64,000 nt of DNA, from positions 620,001 through 684,000 of the forward strand of contig WJXW01000004.1 in the NCBI GenBank assembly GCA_015832175.1. Direction: 5' to 3'. Below the pieces are notes generated by a model that searched no databases, had not been told where the DNA came from, and was given only the letters and a program-made list of their open reading frames with translations. The position numbers were made by a program, and so were the translations under genes. How positions within the stretch are numbered: the first letter of the stretch is position 1; each line of letters opens with the position of its first letter. This document shows, piece by piece, positions 1,043 through 36,999 of the stretch. Source of the DNA: Paraphaeosphaeria minitans (taxonomy: Eukaryota > Ascomycota > Dothideomycetes > Pleosporales > Didymosphaeriaceae).

Positions 1043-3849
1043 AGCATTTCTTATCCGGAAAGTCTTACGGACGTTCCCTGATGTACATCTAATTTGAAAG
1101 CACAATATGGACCACCATTCACCGTTTGGAACTAATCCGATATGGCATGTCGATACTAAACTTCCTCATTCGAAACATAAACTACACTTATTTTAGGTAT
1201 CACTTTTGGAATACTGTGTTCTACTGCTATTTGGACGAACTTCAATGTACTTTGATATACCCTGAGTCGGTGAAAGATTTCCCATGTGCATTTACGAAAT
1301 CTTCTGGCCGCATGTTTGGCAAGCAATGTCATCAGTATGATCTTATTTGTATCACCATGTTTGAAACCCTGGTCTCTTTCACTCTTGTGAATCGATGCAC
1401 TCCAGAGAGAGGGCATCATTTTCATCACTGAGTCCACTATTGCTCCTATCTAGTGGTCAATATTACTGCTTGTTGAACCAGAGCTCCGTAGCTTGGTCGA
1501 CTGTCATTATTTCAGACTAATCCCTGTTGCTATACCTAGTCAGCGTGGCTGGCAGTGCCCGGGAAGCTCAAACTAGGACTCCAACCAAGAGAGCACTCGT
1601 GTTTTCGGATCATCGCATCATGCAACTACTGCTCACACCTTCCATTGGCGGAAGGTAATCAGGCAAGCAGGCAATCTCTAGTGCAGCTTCCCGCGATACG
1701 GGTTTATCTTGCGATACAATGCAAAAACCGGCTCAGCTGCTGTCTCTCCGCCTGTCAGATATTGACGCGTGCAGTCAGATGATTTGTTTTTGATTAAGCG
1801 GCTCTTGTCGAAAGCGAATACAAAAAAATAAAAAATAAAAATGCGATGATCAAGCAATGATAGGTATCGGAGTTCAGCGCTGGGTAGTCATACCACCCCA
1901 AAACCGAGCCGACAAGTTTGGTTCAATGTAAGACGCCCCGTGCCGCGTGTGTGATTATCGTTTTCCCGTTCGACCTCGGTTGGTTGCTGCTCTCGGCTCA
2001 GATGCACAGGCTACCGACAGGATGCACCCATATCACGAAACCTTTTTGTTTCAAACCTCTCGCGGAGTGCTTGATGATATCCTCTCATGGAATCAAAGAG
2101 TTTGGGGACCTGTGTCTTCGTCCTCGTCCCCCAGTTCTAGTAATGTGTTCCTTGCACCGTGCCCCTTCCCGCACCCCGCCATGCATCCTGGTCGATCAGA
2201 AACGGTGACCCACTTCCCTGCACAAACGAGCATCTTGCAGGTCTGGATTCCTAGCTCCCGCGGCATGGTTTCCACATCACGCCTCTGTACCACATTCATG
2301 GTAGCAATGGCTTTCTGTACTGAGGTCGCGCAACCAGAAGCAACACCTTCTTGGTATCCACGGTATGACCCACGGAAAACTATACGACGTGGCTGGAACA
2401 TGCGTGTTAGATGCGGGGCTACATTCCTATGATAGGACGCAATCACAGAGCTGATGGTAGGAGAGGCGTGATTTGTCGCGTTCATCCCTGGTGCAACTGC
2501 CAGGTGCCGAAATGCCTGAGAAAGTCGCACAGGGACATTCCCTTGCTCTTTCGTGCTTCGTAGTTCGGCCCGGGCCAGATATTCTCTCGGGCCGTTCGAA
2601 AGCCAAACCTCGTCGGTGACAGAGTTCACCAGCTTACCGTAGCCCCCCGACCCTGGGTCAGATCCTTGCAACCTACACGCGTGCGTCATGCGGAGTTCAT
2701 GGCCCCGTATCCAATCAGCCTGGCCAATCAATGTGAGCTAATGAATCACGCGCTCAAATGCACTGTAGGTTCCCGGATGAGTGAGCAAGAATCGTCGATT
2801 ATAGCCATCCAACCCGAAGACTTGGGAGATTTGTATGGTGCACGGCGTAGAGTGCGCGTTTATTGTAGGGACATAAGTGTATCGTCTTCCGAACAGTTCC
2901 AGTGTTATGAGCACGCAGTCTTTTGGCTCTTCTTGCTCAGGAACACCATCCGATAAATGATCACTGTTTCAGGTTTTTGGATATTGACAGCTCAACAGGC
3001 AATTTGCACTCGTCATCTGCTCAGCTCTAAGCCTTGCAGTATTGATCTACCCCTACGTCTTGACCGATTATAAACTTTGGCCATGTGAAGGGAGCACGAA
3101 TCGCTTTCATCGATTCTTCAAGTCGGAAATGCAGGCATTCCGATTCCGTGGAAGAGTCCCAAGTTCCTTCCAACCGGACCGCAGCTCGGCTATGTCACAG
3201 CCCTGAAGAGATGCCCTCAAGAAGGCAAACAGCGCTAATGCAGCCTCACAAGGCGATCGGGGGGCCTGTACATGGATGCACATGAGAAACGGAGCAATGG
3301 GACCGTATCGACAACATGAGACATGTATCACCATGCAGTAAAAATCTACGGTACTTGCACATAATCACAAGAAGTAAAGTGTGAATACGCCAAATCATCG
3401 TGAGGTCATTGCTCATGTTACTATGAGAGTGACCTGTCACAGCATAGGTGGCGTGGTTCGAATTCGCTTTCAAGAACCATCAGCTAGGTAAGCGTCATTA
3501 TTACCAGATTTCGTTCATGAACGTCGCTCTTCAAGCCCTTGGGGATATCTTCTTGCGGAAAATTCACCCACTGTACGCCAACCGCGCACAGGATAGATAT
3601 CAATCCTAAAGATACCACCGCAGTGGTGATGGGAATGATGGTGCAAGCATGCCTATAAAGCATGCCCAAGTGAAGATCAAAACCTAAAATGGAGCCGATG
3701 TAATTGTTTGACGTGACTTGACCTGCAATGCGCCGCTGCAGTTCCCATACCATTCCACCTGACGTACTCTAAAAGAAAGTAAGAATTGGATCAGCCTCAA
3801 ACGTTGCGCTTTGTTCGGGAACAGCGCTTAAATGGCGTGAGGGAAATTT
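1043..3849. other. Gene-poor interval, no supported gene
   Basis: About 2.8 kb between the first gene and the hydrolase remnant. The open frames here (for example 1947-2432 on + and 2093-2731 on -) overlap each other on opposite strands, have no recognisable motif and no convincing splice-linked continuation. An A-rich patch lies at 1820-1845. The right end, about 3484-3850, may hold further decayed sequence of the hydrolase remnant described next. Confidence 0.5.
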
Positions 3850-4228
3850 CCAGCTCACCACTGCTGCCTCCACCGACAATCAGCTTCATGGGATTCACAA
3901 CCCCATCCCCAAGCTCAGTGGATATTAACTGGCGACACCACCCTGCACAGTCTTCCACGTCCTGATAGATTTCCTTCATCCTCTCCTGGAGTGCCGACCT
4001 GTAATCGATATTGACTACAACTTACACTCGCTTCGGCCCAGAGTAGAACATGTGTGTACCGACAGCGTGGCGGTTCTCGAAAACAGGCCCGCTATAGTGC
4101 ATCGATAATATCATTGGGCATGGTTTGGAGAAGTTTTCTGTGATGCAGACATTGCAGCCAACCTCGCTTCTACAATGATGATTTAGTGTGAGAGTGTGGA
4201 GTTCGAACTCGTGCGTACTCTTCACCAT
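3850..4228 (-). pseudogene. Remnant of an alpha/beta-hydrolase (lipase/carboxylesterase type 3)
   Basis: Reading leftward from 4228, the translation resembles the middle of an alpha/beta-hydrolase-3 enzyme. A segment with FSKPCPMILSMHYSG sits where these enzymes carry the HGGG oxyanion motif. It is followed by RHAVGTHMF, a strand VVVNIDYR, a VEDCAGWCRQ helix and finally LIVGGGSSG, which matches the GDSAGG nucleophile-elbow region. A TAA at about 4022-4024 interrupts the frame directly before VVVNIDYR with no plausible intron around it, and the HGGG motif is damaged. After the GGGSSG block a GTGAGC could be an old donor, but I could not find a convincing downstream exon. It is probably a decayed gene; an unusual intact gene is much less likely. 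Confidence 0.5.
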
Positions 4229-28636: not shown

Positions 28637-30968
28637 ATGTCGGATACTCAGCCCTATCGTAAAAGAAGACGTCCTGCAGTGTATGTTAACATGACTCTTG
28701 AACGACTGGATACTAGCGCTGATCTGGATCGGACACAGCTCTTGTACTTTGTGTAGGCAGCGCAAGATCCGTTGCAACCGCGAGACCCCATGCAGTAATT
28801 GTATTAGGTCTAGAAACATTACATGCGAGTATGAGACTTTGCCGGTGCTACCTCATCGCTCACGGGAAAGTGATCGCGATGAAGTATCCAGCACCACCAC
28901 ATCTACTACGGCTCCAGTTCAGGATATGGAATCCATGAGAAATCGCGTCACACTTCTTGAAAACCAACTTGAAAATGTACTGCGAAGAGCCATACGGCCT
29001 GATCCTCCAGCTCCTTCTACGGCTGAAACACCAATCTCCAGCATCGAAACGTCAAACAGTCGTATTGGTGGCACTTTCTATATCCATCATGGAGATCCTG
29101 CCCTTGGTCAATCTCCTAACATGCATCGCAGTCTCACGCATAAGAAAATAATGTACGGTCAGAGCCACTGGATGAGCATGAGCGTAATCATGGTCAAAGA
29201 CATTGCCCAGATGATTGACAGACAAGCGCGAGATCCCGACACGCAAGAGTTCAGCGAGAAGGTTTTCTCAGGGATGCACAAATGCAAACGGATAGCCAGA
29301 CTCGTCAAATCGCAGAGAGAACCACCATGGCCGTGTCCGCCAACACCGGAGCTGCCTCCGAAGAGCATTACGGATGATCTGGTCGACTGTTACCTTCGTA
29401 CATTTGAGAGCGTATACAGGATACTCCATATTCCTTCTTTCAGAAGAACTTATGAAGCTATATGGGTAACGGAGAATGAACCCGATTCGACCTTCTTGGT
29501 GCAACTGAAGCTGGTGTTGGCAATAGGTGCAACGACCTACAACAACAACTTTACACTGCGTCAGTCAGCCATGCGATGGGTACATGAAGCTGAGACATTT
29601 CTTACCAACCCCCACCTCAAACACCGACTCAACATACAATACATCCAAATTTATTGTCTTCAGCTTCTTGCTCGACAGACGGCTGCTGTAGGCGAAGACA
29701 TGGTGTTCATTTCGACAGGGAATTTGATACGCTCGGCAATGTTTTTAGGTCTTCACAGGGACCCCGCGCATCTACCAGCAAGGACACTTTACGCCAACGA
29801 AATGCATCGAAGAATCTGGACCACAATTATTGAGCTTTGCTTGCAAGCGAGTATCTATGCAGGTTGCCCACCTCTCTTAAGTCAAGACGATTACGATACT
29901 CAGCCGGCCGGAAACTTTGATGACGACCAGCTTGAGAACGACGACGCGGTTGCGAGGCCAGAAGTCTGCTTGACGCAGTCGTCCGTCTCCGTAATCCTGC
30001 GGAGAACTTTCCCAGCTCGGCTCGCCATCACTGGATTTCTTAATAATTTTACATCCAAAGGCACCTTTGAGGAAACCCTTCAACTTGAATCGGATTTGCG
30101 AACAGGCTACAAGGCGTTAAGAGACGCTCTTCGAGCGTTCGATTCTAGCCATGGAAATTTGCCAACTGACTTCCAGATCCGTGTAGTAGATACGGTAATG
30201 AACCGTTATCTGTGCGCTATCCACTTGCCTTTCTTCGCCCCTGCATTGAAAGACGCCACGTACGCATACTCACGGAAAGCAGTCTTTGACACGGCTCTGA
30301 AGATGTGGTACGCAATATTCCCAGCCTCAAACGACTTCGGCTCATCATCTTCGAATGGTACAACGCCACCTGTAAGAGATGATCTCCAACGAATAGTCAC
30401 CTGTGGTCACGGATTTCTCAGATCGGCGGTGCTGCAATCAATCCTGATGATTGCAGTCGAAATGAGAACGCAACTGCAGGAAGACGACGGTCTGAGTCCG
30501 ACACCACTGCGGCGAGATTTATTCACCATCATCGAAGAGGCCAAGTCGTGGTCGATATGGTGCATGGAGGCTGGCGAGACCAACGTCAAGGGACTTACAT
30601 TTGTATGTCTTATGAGAGCTTACACCCAGGGTCTTGCAAAGGGATTAGGCAAAGAAGCAATCGGGAGGTCACTTGTGGAAGCTTCACACGACGCTTTGCA
30701 GCGTGGAACGGAGTTGCTAGAAGGAATGCTGGAAAATAAGATACCTGAGCAGGATCAGGCGGGTCTAGGGGGCCTTTCCCTAGACGACTTGACGCCCGAG
30801 ATGCTTGCAGACTGGCAGTCAATCGTGAGTACCTTATTTCGTTTCTGCTAGTCTCTCCGTGTTAATATACTACAGCAGATACCAACTGATGTGCACGATC
30901 CTTATGGCTATGACATGATGAATTGGACTTTTGATCAAACAGAAATCCAAAACTCCTGGCTCTTTTGA
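28637..30968 (+). CDS. Zn(II)2Cys6 transcription factor with fungal-specific TF domain
   Basis: Three exons: 28637-28680, 28739-30824 and 30879-30968, giving 739 codons. Introns are 58 and 54 bp. The binuclear zinc cluster CTLCRQRKIRC...CSNC...ITC shows the canonical C-x2-C-x6-C-x5-C-x2-C-x6-C spacing, immediately preceded by basic RKRRRP; the first intron falls just before the first Cys. A short coiled segment (MRNRVTLLENQLENVL) follows. The fungal-specific transcription-factor domain covers about residues 200-450 (YLRTFESVYRILHIPSFRRTYEAIW, RSAMFLGLHRDPA, RRIWTTIIELCLQASI). Together these predict a nuclear DNA-binding regulator. The last exon adds 30 residues with an aromatic/acidic end. 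The target pathway is unknown. Confidence 0.9.
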
Positions 30969-31918
30969 GCCTGGGGCTATCTCATGTGGAAAACACTATG
31001 GTCTCATCTTGTATGAGCTGTGCCAAATATTTTATAGATGAACCAGCTAAGGTAGCTAGGAAGTCTGTATCGACTACGAGCGAACGATCTACTTTACCGG
31101 CCGCTCGCCTAACCCGTCCTTCACCTCGTCAACTCTCCCAATAAGTGCAGAGGAGTTATTGTTACGCGTTGAGAGGGAAATACTGCAGCCGTTACTCTCC
31201 GATCGAGCATATCGGTGCATAGGTATTGGTCCTACGTTGATTTTGTATCGATATATCGGCTATGCAATGTCCTTAGAGAAAGGTTTCGAATATACGATTT
31301 GCGCGAACAGTCATTTCACGTAGATATTGGAGGGAAATCGGTCATGAAAGCTGAATTGCTGGAATTCAAGGTCACGCTCTGGCCGCTGACGAAGCATGAG
31401 TTGGTATTTTGAGGCTGAGATTCTGCATGTTCCAAAACAGGGCAAAGGCAATCAGACACCGCCAATTCGGATGCATTGTTATCAGGTTTATTAACAGGAC
31501 CATCGTATACGACTCAAAGACGGTCAGGCTTCATGTAAACATATGGCTCCACAAGCACGGTGGATTCGGTGCGTATGCCTGGATATCGATCCCACAACAC
31601 AGTCTTTTTTTTTTCTGTTGAACCTTCTTACAGGCTCGAAGCACGATGCTAATCTGAAGACAGTACCGACAGCCATCCATCAAAATTCAGGTTGCTAGGA
31701 GACGCTCATACTGTCACTGCCAATGGACGGAATTGTTCTCTTCAAACTTTTAATACAATGTCCAGGCTGCATGAGACTTGTTCCATGTTGAGAGGCGTCA
31801 AGCAAAAGGTGAACACCGAAAGACTTCGTAATTGTGGGGATATATATCGCGACAAGAGGAATGTACAGAGTGGAGTTTCGTACTACACATAACACCAACT
31901 TACATATTAGATCTTCAT
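30969..31918. other. Convergent intergenic region, no gene seen
   Basis: Lies between the 3' ends of the regulator (+) and the rvt-like gene (-). It is relatively AT-rich; the short frames at 31215-31621 have no motif. No long terminal repeat, target-site duplication or poly-A tail that would mark the neighbouring reverse-transcriptase gene as a mobile element. A 9-base T run lies at 31607-31615. Confidence 0.5.
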
Positions 31919-34876
31919 CTAACCTTCCCAGCGCACCCTCTCGCTTCTCAAGACGTCCACCAAGCCCACAGGTAGCAGATCTCGTTCTCCGAGCTGCAGT
32001 CCACCAAACCGCTTGTTCATATCTCCGACATACAAATTGTATATCCACAACCAGTACGCCGACCGCTCCAGTGACCGCTCGCGCAGCGTATTCTCGATCG
32101 TTGGCAAAGTCTCCAAGCGCTCCTCCGGCGGACACTGCTGCAAATTCTCGTACGCGTTCCGCAAGTGCACAGACGTCTCTTCCCTAAACCGCGTGTACTC
32201 TTCAAAGCTCATGAACGGTTCGTCGGCCTCCGTGTCCGTTCCACTTTCATCTTTCGGTAGAGGCGAGTACTTTGTATGCTTGAGCCGGTTCTGCCCGGAG
32301 TCCCAGCGTTCCTTGAACCCATCGTAGTCCGCCTTCTCCAGCTCGAAAGCGCGATCGATGCGCTCTGTCGAGTCGCGGAACGATCTCCTGTATGTCGCAA
32401 AGGCGTTGACAAGCGGGTTGCGGAGACCCAGACCACCTAGCTCGTGTGGGAAGTAAAAGAAACCGTCGGGGACCAGGTCGTCGGTGCCGAAGCGCTCTTT
32501 GAGAATGCCGCGCAGGTAGTCTGTGACATTCACTGTCCCGGCATCCTTGAAGAGACTGCGCTGGATATGCTCATAAGTTTCGATGATCATGTCGTTGTGT
32601 TGGCGCCCGAAGCAGTTGGCAGGCTGCCCGAAATGAGTCGAGAAGAAGCGGCTGACGTAGCTGTTCCAGGCCTGTACCCATGCCATGACGCTCTGGCAAG
32701 CTCCCAGCTGGCGTCGCAGTTCTTCAATGTGCTCGTCAACCTGGGCGCGGTCAATGACCCATCTGCCAGCCGAGGCGTTCAGGTTCAGGAAACCCCACTT
32801 GATGGGACCTTTCGGCAAAGCATCTGGCAGAGGTCGAGATGAAGCTTTGTCCGCGACAACGAGAGCCGCACCAGTCTTGTCTTCGTTGAGTTGTATACCC
32901 ATGACTCGTGAAAATTCTTGCATCGCGTTCCAAGCTTGAATGCAGGTAGACTCCTGACCCCAGAACCACAAGTCATCGTGGAAACGATAAATATTGGCTC
33001 CTTTCGTGCGCTTGTTGACTGCAAAGTCAAGACAAAAGAGAACCGCTTCGCTGAGTGCATCACTCAGAACGTGCGACATCGGGATGCCGCAATTCCGTAC
33101 CTGCGCTTCGGCATCGGGTCCATCCTGCGCAAAGGCGACCGGCGATTCGAGGAACTTCTTGAAGAACCGAAGCCACTTGCCAGGAACCCCGAAAAATTTG
33201 AGCACAGCGAAGATCGTGTCGTGAGGCAGCGATGGACCGAACCACTTGAAGTCGGACTGCAGAACCAAGAATTCGCCGTACACCTTCGTGTTGAGGAGAA
33301 GCTCAGCGGTCACAAGACGCAGCATAGACTGCTTTGTCGCGAGTGGCGACCCGCTTGACCCAGGTTGGTTCTCGTCCTGGTCCTCGGCATTGTAATCCCG
33401 TTGGCTTTCAAATGCTTTACTCGGCAGCTGTGTCATAAAGTAATCCTCTTGATAGCTCTCACGTCTGCAGTTACGGACATTTTGACTTTCGATGCGTTCA
33501 GGGACAAAGTACTCCCAGCGTTGACGGGCTTTCTTGCTCATCGAGCGGTATGGCGACTGCAGCCAGGCTCCAGAATGATAGAAGGTAGTGAATGCCTGCT
33601 TGAGAGCGACTGCCCAAGTTTGACCGATGAAATGAAGCAGGATAGCCTGATGGGTTTCCTCGTCCATGTAGACGCGGTACTTGCCGTTGAGTTGGCGTCG
33701 CATGTTCAGAGGGACAGGTGAGGGATCCCATTCCCAATTATCGAGCCCCTCCAGGTCCATGTTCAGCACATCGACTAGCTCCTTCAAGACGGCTGGCTGG
33801 TTGTTGAGGTCCGCAAGTGCTTCGCGCTTGGTTCCTGCGAGCAGATCCGATCGAAGAACGCCTTTGATGCACGACTTGAGGGTGTCGACGTCGAACCGCT
33901 TGGAAATCGCGGATGTTTCCCATGCATCGTTATCATAGAGTGTGTTCTTCTTTTTCACAGGCTGCAAGTCCGACTTGAAATCCATCACGTGCTTCATGGA
34001 ATCGCGAAGATTTTGAAGAGGCGTTTTGGTGACTTTCTTTGCTTGTAGTGTGCTCCCGAAGATTTTGCTGAGATACTCCTCGATATTTTCCTGATCCACC
34101 TTGCGCTCTGTGAATGCATAGCTTTCCCACTCTTTGCGCTGCTCGTGCATCTCTTTACGGCCGATAGTGTCAAAGCCTTCACTTGCATCTGTGTCCGAGT
34201 CGCTGCTTGCCGTATTGCCACCGGATGCCGAACCTGCGGGATTGGGGTGCTTGATCCATTCGATGACAAGTTTTCCAAATAACGTTGCGTATTCGTACTT
34301 CACAGCCGTCACGTCCAACTCGTGTTCGAGCTTCGATTGCCAATCCGATAGGAGCGTTGTCGACACAGACGGGTCGTATTTGGCCTGGTGAATGAAGTGA
34401 TTCAGGTTTGTGATAGAGAGCTCGGGATGTTTCGCTGTTATTCCGTGCTGCTCGAAGCCGTCCAGCAAAGCTTCCACTTTGCTGCGATGGTCGGGCGCGG
34501 ATGCAACCTTTGCAAGAATCGATCTCTTATCAGTTTCGAACTTTTCGCGGTGGTCTGAAAGTTTCCCCAACTTGCGCTCAGTGACATGATGGAGAGTCGA
34601 AAGCGTGGGAGTTGCCATGTTTGTGCTTGGTGATTGGTGAAGACCGCGCGAAGTTATATTTCTTCCTGTTGGGTGACCTGGGGCTCGACCTCGACCTCTT
34701 CCACGCGAATGCATAGATATAAAATATGGTGAGGTCGAAAGAGATGCTTTGAAAGCTCGATGCTTGATGAGACTCGCCATTTTCCGCGATAAAGTCGCGT
34801 TTAAATAGGTACACGAGAATCTTGAGGCTGCAACTTTTCCATGAGCGCCCTTAGGCAGCATATCAGCACGTGACAA
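31919..34876 (-). CDS. rvt: Cellular reverse-transcriptase-related protein (rvt family)
   Basis: One uninterrupted frame of 985 codons. The likely true start is the Met at 34780 (MASLIKHRAF) or 34618 (MATPTLSTLHHV), because the first residues look like leader. The N-terminal ~400 residues are helical and charged, with a coiled-coil-like stretch HREKFETDKRSILAKVAS. The polymerase core follows: motif A in SDFKWFGPSLPHD (Asp542), a motif-B-like GIPMSHVLSDALSEAV, and motif C in RFHDDLWFWG (His633-Asp634-Asp635 instead of Y-x-D-D), then motif D-like GIQLNEDKTGAALVV and a ~250-residue C-terminal extension. No RNase H, integrase, endonuclease or gag domain, no LTR and no decay. This matches the domesticated single-copy rvt genes described in fungi and some other eukaryotes and bacteria, whose products polymerise (d)NTPs in vitro with protein priming. 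Cellular role unknown. Confidence 0.82.
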   Translation of the reverse strand: MSRADMLPKGAHGKVAASRFSCTYLNATLSRKMASLIKHRAFKASLSTSPYFISMHSRGRGRGRAPGHPTGRNITSRGLHQSPSTNMATPTLSTLHHVTERKLGKLSDHREKFETDKRSILAKVASAPDHRSKVEALLDGFEQHGITAKHPELSITNLNHFIHQAKYDPSVSTTLLSDWQSKLEHELDVTAVKYEYATLFGKLVIEWIKHPNPAGSASGGNTASSDSDTDASEGFDTIGRKEMHEQRKEWESYAFTERKVDQENIEEYLSKIFGSTLQAKKVTKTPLQNLRDSMKHVMDFKSDLQPVKKKNTLYDNDAWETSAISKRFDVDTLKSCIKGVLRSDLLAGTKREALADLNNQPAVLKELVDVLNMDLEGLDNWEWDPSPVPLNMRRQLNGKYRVYMDEETHQAILLHFIGQTWAVALKQAFTTFYHSGAWLQSPYRSMSKKARQRWEYFVPERIESQNVRNCRRESYQEDYFMTQLPSKAFESQRDYNAEDQDENQPGSSGSPLATKQSMLRLVTAELLLNTKVYGEFLVLQSDFKWFGPSLPHDTIFAVLKFFGVPGKWLRFFKKFLESPVAFAQDGPDAEAQVRNCGIPMSHVLSDALSEAVLFCLDFAVNKRTKGANIYRFHDDLWFWGQESTCIQAWNAMQEFSRVMGIQLNEDKTGAALVVADKASSRPLPDALPKGPIKWGFLNLNASAGRWVIDRAQVDEHIEELRRQLGACQSVMAWVQAWNSYVSRFFSTHFGQPANCFGRQHNDMIIETYEHIQRSLFKDAGTVNVTDYLRGILKERFGTDDLVPDGFFYFPHELGGLGLRNPLVNAFATYRRSFRDSTERIDRAFELEKADYDGFKERWDSGQNRLKHTKYSPLPKDESGTDTEADEPFMSFEEYTRFREETSVHLRNAYENLQQCPPEERLETLPTIENTLRERSLERSAYWLWIYNLYVGDMNKRFGGLQLGERDLLPVGLVDVLRSERVRWEG

Positions 34877-35137
34877 CGCGCCGTATACGGTATTGTAATG
34901 GCTGCATTACAGTCAAGAGCAATTGATGCAGGGCGGAAGGGCAGAAGGGCGTAAGATAAAGCTCTATGACTGTGCCACAGTTGCTGCCTGTTATGCTGGG
35001 CTAGCCCTTTCAGGAAAGACACTTAGCCGTTTAGAGTGAAAAGTGGGTATTGTATCAGAAACACAGACGAAAATCAGCTGTTAACCAAATACTGTCCCTT
35101 TCCAATATAAGCCTACCTCTAATGTAACAAGCAATCA

Positions 35138-36841
35138 TCAAGCAGCCTGCTCCCTTTTCCTTCGCACGAATCGCACAACCCTTGCCTCAAATCGAGTAAC
35201 AAGACTATTCCATCTAGGTGGCGGAGGTGGCGGAGGATCGTACGTTTCTTCATCCTCAAAATGATCTTCGTCTTCCGATGAATTGTATAAGTCCTCGGAG
35301 TCTTGTTCGTCCTCAGTAAGCCTGTCATCCTCCTCCTCCTCCTCCTCCTCCTCCTCCTCCTCCTCCTCCTCCTCCTCCTCCTCTTCTTCTTCTTCTCCGT
35401 CTTCGACATTCAAAACCTTGTTATAATTCTGGTCAAGATCCCCAGGTTTTATTTCCCAGCTTGCGTCTCCAACCTCCCCGTCCCAGATCAGCTCAAACGA
35501 TGATTTCTCGATAGGGAAGCGCCAGGTCTTCGCACAATCCACGATAGTCTCAAGCCTATCTTTCTTCACATCGAATGTCTCAAGCACAAGCTTGAGCTGC
35601 TTTAGATCCGGAAGTCTCTCTACGATTGTGCCCCAGCCACCATGCCCCCGGTTCCCTATGTCTTCGCCCGCGCGCTGCTTTGCCGCACGGAATTCCATCA
35701 CCGTTTCACCTGGATAGCTTGGTTGAATTAGAGAAGGAGACTTCTCTCCAACTAATGGTTCAAGATAGAGCTGATTATGCGGACTTGGTGAATAAGAAGG
35801 TAGAGTTGTATCGACACTCCAATTCCACCAATCCTGATGGGTCAAGCGGAGGGTCAAATGCGTCAGAGGACGAGCCACCATCGCACGCGCCTTGAACTTA
35901 GTCGCGAAAGTTCCACGTTCGTAGAAGATACTGTGTTCAGTGTCAGGGAGATCCGTTGCGATGTCCAGCGTAAGCTCATCACCATCCCGTAGGTTTTTCT
36001 TTCCAATCTTAGCAGCTGACAAGATGCCGAAAGGAAATGGCTCCCTGTGACGAATTCGTCCAGATATTCTGTCCCGTGTACGTAAGAACCGCGGTTCTAT
36101 GTATGCGCCTTGGTGTCGTTCCTCGGGAGCCCATTCTTTCAGCCAGTTTCGTAACTCGCCCCGCTCCAGGGCTATTTGTTGGAGGCTGATATCAAGACGC
36201 TGTATGAGGGCCGCTTGCCAGGGAGCCAAAATTCTTAAGTCTGGCCGGAAAGGCCCTTGGAAATCATATAAAGTGTAGTAATTCAGCTGCAATGGAAGCC
36301 GGTACGTCTCGAGATAGACGGCCTTGCAGCTCTCGACCAGCCCAAATGCTATGTCTGAAACTGGGAGTTTGGGTTTCCCGTTCATCTTGTCCGAGCGCCA
36401 CATAAAGGTGCCGCAGGTGGGCACAGAAGTGGTATCTGTGAGCGCATACTCCCAGATCATCTCGCGGATCTCGATTGGCAGTCCCGTGAGCAGAGTGGAT
36501 TGAGCTTGTGAGTAGATACGGTCCTTGGCTATCGAGAATGCGAGTGGTTCCAGGTTGCGACCGTAGAACATGCAAGGCTTTGGAATTACCAGGTCGCGTT
36601 GGCATGAGCAGAAATTTGCGCCATCGCTGTTGTCGCAGGACGTATCAGGCAGATATCCGCGCTGGAGATTTTTCGTCTGGCGTCTCACGGTAAGAGTAAG
36701 ACCTGGTTCTGCCATTTGTAGAGCGAGACGTAGGAGATGGCAGGTTGACAAATTTATGATAGGGGGACGTTTATGTAGGTTTGCCTCGTGGTAGCCTGAT
36801 GCTCCCGTGCGCCTAAGCCGAAATGGGCGGCTTCCAGGCAT
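35138..36841 (-). CDS. Fungal protein of the LPxEIRExIWEYAL (2EXR/DUF7730-like) type with poly-Glu tract
   Basis: Single frame of 567 codons; the Met at 36715 (MAEPGLTLTVRRQ) is the more probable start, as the preceding 42 residues look like 5' leader. The recognisable block is LTGLPIEIREMIWEYALT with a following SCKAVYLETYRLPL segment, a pattern of the very common F-box-like fungal proteins of unknown function. A run of over 20 Glu (bases about 35328-35396) is encoded by a CCT microsatellite and sits in an acidic region continuing DDRLTEDEQDSEDLYNSSED. The C-terminus is basic (FEARVVRFVRRKREQ). There is no catalytic motif. The poly-Glu length should vary between strains. Confidence 0.75.
   Translation of the reverse strand: MPGSRPFRLRRTGASGYHEANLHKRPPIINLSTCHLLRLALQMAEPGLTLTVRRQTKNLQRGYLPDTSCDNSDGANFCSCQRDLVIPKPCMFYGRNLEPLAFSIAKDRIYSQAQSTLLTGLPIEIREMIWEYALTDTTSVPTCGTFMWRSDKMNGKPKLPVSDIAFGLVESCKAVYLETYRLPLQLNYYTLYDFQGPFRPDLRILAPWQAALIQRLDISLQQIALERGELRNWLKEWAPEERHQGAYIEPRFLRTRDRISGRIRHREPFPFGILSAAKIGKKNLRDGDELTLDIATDLPDTEHSIFYERGTFATKFKARAMVARPLTHLTLRLTHQDWWNWSVDTTLPSYSPSPHNQLYLEPLVGEKSPSLIQPSYPGETVMEFRAAKQRAGEDIGNRGHGGWGTIVERLPDLKQLKLVLETFDVKKDRLETIVDCAKTWRFPIEKSSFELIWDGEVGDASWEIKPGDLDQNYNKVLNVEDGEEEEEEEEEEEEEEEEEEEEEEDDRLTEDEQDSEDLYNSSEDEDHFEDEETYDPPPPPPPRWNSLVTRFEARVVRFVRRKREQAA
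35328..35397. repeat. CCT trinucleotide microsatellite inside a coding region
   Basis: More than 20 CCT units, then CTT units. On the minus strand they read GAG/GAA and encode the poly-Glu run of the surrounding gene. Confidence 0.95.
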
Positions 36842-36999
36842 CAGCCAATCAACGTAAAGCTCCGCTCGTATCGGGCAAGAAGACTAGTCTCCGACATTGG
36901 GCGACATTGGGTGTTGATGAGACACTTTACAAGTGGTATTGAATTGTTTCAGAAATTTACTACCATAGTGTCGATTTGTAAAGAGGCTCTCGTCACTCA

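Follow-up and report, generated by a model that had tools for sequence, protein, structure and literature searches.

A probable rvt-type gene of Paraphaeosphaeria minitans and a sister family with a histone H3-like loop in its reverse-transcriptase fold

The window analysed here is a 64,000-nucleotide stretch of the genome of the ascomycete Paraphaeosphaeria minitans (contig C4, WJXW01000004.1, positions 620001–684000), which we examined against the whole 47.45-Mb, 30-contig assembly. Its minus strand carries a long gene related to reverse transcriptases (RTs) that a preliminary description had assigned to the cellular rvt genes. Our analysis points to an immobile host gene of this type and to a sister family, B, many of whose members carry a stretch resembling the histone H3 tail. 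The uninterrupted frame that had been reported runs over 995 codons (31919–34906), and a chance open frame is ruled out by the probability of 9e-20 that base composition alone gives to 995 stop-free codons. The coding start had been placed at 34876, which we could not uphold. Two ATGs stand in good context, at 34780 (giving 953 residues) and at 34618 (giving 899), and one of these is more likely to be the start. In P. sporulosa, the annotation of protein P0002 uses the first; the second is the start in most annotated relatives, 83 of 104 length-filtered ones having no annotated extension of at least 15 residues upstream of it. No Rfam RNA element matched positions 31000–36000 up to an E value of 1.

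The motifs of an RT core can be followed along the frame (Table 1). The earlier numbering of the catalytic residues, Asp542 in motif A and HDD at 633–635 in motif C, is correct when counted from 34876; counted from 34906, the same residues are 552 and 643–645. The Asp of motif A, the Gly that follows at the fifth position after it and the HDD of motif C are invariant in all 104 length-filtered members of family A, by which we mean the list of matches to the window protein and not one clade: P0115 and P0120, both on this list, group with family B (support 94) in a 62-row tree, where P0111 finds no place. Length filtering before counting removed 17 of 121 proteins from family A, 4 of 120 from family B and 9 of 40 from family C, the third family described below. 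In the structure model, ~130 residues separate the finger hairpin (residues 302–318) from the strand of motif A (449–457), with extra helices and a disordered stretch between them. The model therefore contains, at the site of loop 2a between motifs 2 and 3, the large insertion that the preliminary description had proposed to check. The loop of the window protein is disordered in part (model residues 408–421) and lacks a histone tail.

In RTs, an aromatic residue five positions after the motif A Asp excludes ribonucleotides. Read by ungapped alignment to motif A of the long interspersed nuclear element (LINE) type, this gate position is the invariant Gly in family A and Ala in 31 of 31 family C proteins. 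We read the window protein as one in which Gly probably takes the place of the aromatic steric gate. A Gly here fits the preference for nucleoside triphosphates (NTPs) that Neurospora RVT is said to show in the 2011 work of Gladyshev and Arkhipova, and an invariant one would explain how an RT-like protein comes to use NTPs.

The gene carries none of the mobile-element parts sought. RVT_1 was the sole Pfam family above cut-off (30.6 bits against 29.6), YbjQ_1 (E = 0.18) falling below its own, and across 37 family members RVT_1 was again the sole family at E = 0.001, present in 21; no endonuclease, gag, integrase or ribonuclease H (RNase H) family was found in the window protein or in these 37. 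Long N- and C-terminal extensions free of such domains, as first described, are seen in both the Pfam searches and the structure model. As DNA, the gene occurs once in the 47.45-Mb genome, apart from two short partial matches to a 58-nt stretch downstream of its stop codon, and no decayed copies of it were found there; the earlier claim of a single copy holds in this sense, but the genome also contains a diverged paralogue and a decayed relative. The assembly holds at least 150 further RVT_1 stretches, from a scoring that took in 150 of 781 candidates, and many of them contain several stops. Indices of repeat-induced point mutation (RIP) are 0.52 and 1.23 for the gene and 0.66 and 1.23 for the window. 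As for target-site duplications, no long flanking repeats appeared in 30900–35500, in a search with a minimum length of 14 nt only. A recent transposon insertion was rejected on three grounds: one copy, no mobile parts and no notable repeat of 14 nt or more in that interval. The endonuclease domain and the multiple or decayed copies expected of a LINE/R2 retrotransposon are absent. The window gene is apparently host-owned, intact, strongly conserved at the protein level and non-mobile.

The window protein has 176 protein relatives, the best 120 of which are 37–90% identical to it. Those named among the matches listed include Dothideomycetes, lichen-forming Lecanoromycetes, Sclerotinia nivalis and Aspergillus avenaceus, the last two of which we take to be Leotiomycetes and Eurotiomycetes, respectively; family A relatives occur widely in Pezizomycotina. 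The closest sequences among the matches listed are those of its own fungal family rather than LINE, long terminal repeat (LTR) or intron RTs, and this agrees with the original assignment. In fold, the window protein comes closest to the RTs of R2 and LINE-1, with 10–12% identity. A single-sequence search of the PDB returned one match (E = 0.055), not an RT, and the best solved relative by profile is 9ioa (E = 1.9e-4), a DRT9 enzyme, one of the defence-associated RTs (DRTs). In NCBIfam nothing came near a cut-off; the family C protein P0242 matched group II RTs weakly.

The strongest profile match is to RT_UG37 of PADLOC, at E = 1.4e-74 with the best stretch at 238–752 (515 residues); the next-best PADLOC model reaches E = 5e-7. 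RT_UG37 also matches family B (P0122, E = 5.3e-58, 10–791, 782 residues), family C (P0242, E = 3.5e-59, 10–708, 699 residues) and 26 of 26 members of a wider A and B set. PMC5718144 describes rvt as the sole RT group found in bacteria as well as eukaryotes, and as carrying a big loop 2a, an insertion between motifs 2 and 3. We infer that the bacterial rvt group is UG37 or a part of it. Through the profile match, which stands in for a comparison with the bacterial sequences themselves, the window gene has the trans-domain character of rvt, and this character, the motifs, loop 2a, the extensions and the lack of mobile parts together support its interpretation as an rvt-type gene. Our literature search found no relevant work on UG37. 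Separately, plasmid pGD02.2.2 of Rhodococcus rhodochrous encodes at 2611–3975 an RT-domain protein of 454 residues, near an Abi-family gene and an integrase. It is weakly similar to the fungal protein P0111 (26.6% over 123 residues) and is not a relative over the full length.

Two relatives of the window gene in the P. minitans genome define families B and C. The family B protein is 100% identical to PMIN06_004728, and Asn replaces its motif A Asp. This Asp is missing in all 116 length-filtered family B members, where the site holds V in 48, T in 19, A and E in 12 each, I in 7, N and Q in 5 each, S in 3, M in 2, and G, C and R once each; the motif C DD is kept in 106 of 116. The members of family B lie together on one side of a branch that has support 100, and next to them stand Sclerotinia-type proteins that have the Asp (support 94; the root is drawn arbitrarily), so loss of the Asp is most simply a derived state. 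Matches to family B number 687, the best 120 of which include Fusarium, Alternaria, Bipolaris, Aspergillus hancockii and the lichen fungus Hypocenomyce; the family is widespread in filamentous ascomycetes. As it lacks the motif A Asp, family B would consist of inactive pseudo-polymerases; it keeps the overall predicted RT fold. Family C, with 40 relatives, has the motif A Asp and HDD intact in 31 of 31 length-filtered proteins. Its P. minitans member is decayed, and an intact copy, P0242, survives in P. sporulosa.

Table 1. Coordinates of the gene, its motifs and its two relatives (window positions unless a contig is named)
Feature	Position	Strand	Remarks
Whole open frame, 995 codons	31919–34906	minus	TAG stop at 31919–31921
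Core coding sequence from ATG 34618, 899 aa plus stop	31919–34618	minus	context CACAAACATGG
Candidate N-terminal extension from ATG 34780, 54 aa	34619–34780	minus	Asp/Glu-free, Arg-rich, ends SRGLHQSPSTN
RT motifs 1–2 region, predicted finger beta-hairpin	33665–33715	minus	model strands 302–308 and 314–318
Insertion between motif 2 and motif 3/A, place of loop 2a	33347–33577	minus	partly disordered in the model
Motif A (LQSDFKWFGPSL)	33227–33262	minus	catalytic Asp; Gly five residues on
Motif B (QVRNCGIPMSHVLSDAL)	33053–33103	minus	
Motif C (YRFHDDLWFWG)	32957–32989	minus	
Motif D (MGIQLNEDKTGA)	32867–32902	minus	
Motif E (IKWGFLNLN)	32777–32803	minus	
Family B gene	~C1:1354622–1357699	minus	three introns, 966 aa; search locus C1:1354921–1358778
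Family C decayed member	C8:1468357–1468898	plus	frame changed, two stops

Loop 2a of the P. minitans family B protein contains H3 residues 4–31 without a mismatch, ahead of motif A (in our H3 reference, residues from 9 onward were taken from an H3 sequence). Scored against the H3 tail, 74 of 116 family B loops reach at least 40 (maximum 161), compared with 0 of 104 in family A (maximum 31) and 0 of 31 in family C (maximum 28); loops scoring above all 100 shuffles number 78, 2 and 0, respectively. Pieces resembling the H4 tail (GGAMRHRKV, GAKRHRKIL; z > 5) occur in 11 of 116 family B loops and in none of A or C, whereas H2A-like pieces occur in 2 of 116 and H2B-like pieces in none. The H3-like stretch is disordered in the family B model (predicted local distance difference test below 50, residues 400–474). 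Where the loop and the genome's own H3 gene encode an identical set of 23 residues, they agree at only 52 of 69 bases, and at third codon positions in 7 of 23 cases. The low agreement at third positions indicates that the tail in family B is old, and these same counts rule out a recent DNA capture of an H3 exon. By parsimony, presence of the mimic (score at least 40) requires at least 20 changes on the tree, which suggests that it has often been lost or has fallen below the threshold. No report of a histone mimic in RT-related genes was found among the literature matches listed.

The lysines are the least conserved residues of the family B H3 tail. Across the 74 loops, Lys is kept in 204 of 392 cells (52%) at its six positions, compared with 1,171 of 1,487 (79%) for the H3 residue at other positions from 2 to 30 and 230 of 262 (88%) for Arg. 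When Lys is replaced, Met is frequent, making up 48 of 188 tail substitutions against 14 of 1,405 at 42 other Lys-majority columns (Fisher test, 6e-35, with cells as counts and uncorrected for kinship). The preference is not confined to Lys: at the remaining tail positions Met supplies 34 of 316 substitutions, with L20 contributing 15 of these, and is thus favoured across the tail more widely, and its share in the rest of the family B loop is 3.5% (213 of 6,148). On one FastTree tree, built with the loop columns left out, the minimum numbers of changes to Met are 20 at K18, 9 at K4, 6 at K23, 3 at K9 and 2 each at K14 and K27, next to shuffled-label means of 19.1, 9.4, 6.8, 3.0, 3.9 and 2.0 in the same order of K18, K4, K23, K9, K14 and K27. 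As the minima lie near the shuffled means, Met at K18 and K4 is recurrent. At least one Met stands at a Lys position in 39 of 74 loops; all six Lys are kept in 3 of 74, including those of P. minitans and P. sporulosa.

The gene may also have a second isoform. The 54-residue extension upstream of 34618 is a candidate mitochondrial presequence judging by its composition, and mitochondrial targeting looks to be a feature of several family A lineages. With the P0001 frame counted, 21 of 104 family A proteins have at least 15 residues ahead of the common start. Nine of these extensions contain no acidic residue, four contain one, three contain two and five contain 4–7, and several close with sequences like RRLHST, RGLHQS or RRGIST. 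Compared between P. minitans and P. sporulosa, the extension shows a gap of 3 residues, in frame, along with scattered changes. Against a presequence speaks its GC content at third codon positions, 0.315 against 0.643 in the core; the acidic residues in some family A extensions and the 83 of 104 relatives annotated without one argue likewise against a mitochondrial isoform.

Of the neighbours first described, the regulator is confirmed as a Zn2Cys6 protein (PF00172 above cut-off), whereas the F-box-like assignment is weak, the right-hand gene having only sub-threshold matches to DUF7730/2EXR. This gene (35138–36883, minus) has a long Glu run, for which a near-perfect triplet repeat at ~35325–35405 codes. 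The 58-nt stretch lies at 31797–31854, on the downstream side, with 64 bases between its end and the stop codon. Within it is a 10-nt palindrome (GATATATATC), and the stretch recurs in part, at 88–89% identity, at C17:655391–655447 and C11:1238649–1238694.

We think it fairly probable that the window gene belongs to the host, does not move and is of the rvt type, most likely encoding a multimeric nucleotide polymerase that works without a template, or with a loosely used one, in a stress response. By analogy with rvt proteins, its product would prefer NTPs, act like a terminal transferase, form multimers and be induced by translational stress. The available text of one meeting report (PMC3520738) describes terminal transferase activity of rvt and its strong induction when protein synthesis is inhibited, and that of another (PMC10680173) describes non-templated polymerisation and a stress protection that needs the catalytic residues.

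Several observations weigh against this reading. The rvt label derives from shared features rather than from direct alignment to an rvt reference sequence, and the gate was assigned from an ungapped motif alignment rather than a solved structure. The link to bacteria through RT_UG37 is our own deduction: DNA scans for bacterial relatives gave 109 and 26 pattern matches in prokaryote contigs and 19 in viral contigs, none of them confirmed. A plasmid scan with 121 matching records yielded none covering 80% of the query, the 20 listed all being group II intron RTs; a second, with 115 matching records, yielded none covering 80% among the 10 listed, and a plasmid search with P0242 gave no match. 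The predicted fold is unspecific, being common to LINE RTs, Prp8 and viral RNA polymerases, and to group II introns and DRTs as well. This breadth, and the fact that the P. minitans family B tail keeps its lysines, lowered our confidence both here and in the decoy function discussed below.

The best surviving alternative, which we regard as unlikely, is a DRT-like defence polymerase whose nucleic acid product blocks mycoviruses or transposons. The strong match to RT_UG37, which is filed as a DRT in a defence database, and the position of 9ioa as best solved relative would fit such a role, but that database mixes known and candidate systems, and the published statements on rvt, in their available text, indicate translation stress and starvation instead. 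Slightly less likely still is a separate fungal RT-related family that runs parallel to rvt as another clade. It would account for the lack of Neurospora or rvt names in the best 120 of 176 matches, the best 120 of 687 and the family C list, although many of these rows are nameless, and the features of the gene agree with published rvt down to the trans-domain relatives. We consider it improbable that the window protein is a scaffold with an unused polymerase site, in complex with the histone-mimic paralogue: a paralogue without the motif A Asp does keep the overall predicted fold, but mere scaffolding would not need the catalytic residues that are invariant in all counted members of families A and C. 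An R2/LINE-like retrotransposon RT, recently domesticated or the lone survivor of a mobile element, is very improbable, since its support from the best structural matches and the many RT elements in the genome is offset by the breadth of that fold, which group II introns, DRTs, Prp8 and viral RNA polymerases have too, the lack of mobile-element Pfam families, the single copy with relatives widely in Pezizomycotina, RIP indices like those of the window, and the lack of a notable flanking repeat of 14 nt or more in 30900–35500.

Returning to the rvt-type polymerase, we tentatively propose, at odds clearly below even, that it belongs to an enzyme and pseudo-enzyme set in which an active window polymerase is paired with a family B histone-tail decoy, the two perhaps co-assembled and coupling stress polymer synthesis to chromatin. 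Family B, having lost the motif A Asp, would use its disordered loop 2a as an H3, or sometimes H3 and H4, tail decoy. Because the non-lysine residues are kept and Met or Arg has repeatedly replaced the lysines, the loop may dock histone readers or trap methyltransferases. The model for such action is the Lys-to-Met oncohistones and EZHIP: in the available text of the respective sources, H3K9M traps the methyltransferase Clr4 in fission yeast (PMC5030085) and EZHIP inhibits Polycomb repressive complex 2 (PRC2) by a K27M-like mechanism (PMC6513997). The window and family B proteins might co-assemble, given their common predicted fold, and co-assembly would couple stress-induced polymer synthesis to chromatin control. 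Four points weaken the case for a decoy. The P. minitans family B tail is a lysine-bearing copy of H3 and not a Lys-to-Met version; K27M is rare (2 of 74 loops); 42 of 116 family B members score below 40 for the H3 tail; and K18, to our knowledge, is not a classical methylation site.

The gate Gly, the UG37 link and the histone-tail sister family make the role of rvt directly testable. Through the RT_UG37 match these fungal genes are tied to bacterial RTs that are listed as candidates for defence, and family B points to partners among histone-modifying or histone-reading proteins. If the decoy function is true, natural and recurrent Lys-to-Met histone mimics in fungi would offer a new setting for studying how methyltransferases are restrained.

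Taken alone, the window gene is of a known kind, and the novelty lies in its set with family B. Like the Neurospora crassa RVT gene and other rvt genes, it is a cellular RT-related fungal gene that has a large insertion separating motifs 2 and 3, terminal extensions, bacterial relatives and no mobile-element parts; unlike them, it belongs to a set of three paralogous families, one of which lacks the motif A Asp and has a histone-tail loop, neither of which features in the available text of the rvt descriptions. RT_UG37 matches all three fungal families, but its model was made from prokaryotic proteins filed as DRT. From R2 and LINE-1 RTs, to which it is 10–12% identical, the window protein differs in having no endonuclease domain and in not being mobile. 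The likeness to EZHIP concerns family B only and consists of an H3-tail-like stretch with Lys replaced by Met in a non-histone protein. Family B differs from EZHIP in being fungal, in placing the mimic within an RT fold, in covering H3 residues 2–31 and in having Met mostly at K18 and K4, and any inhibition by it is putative.

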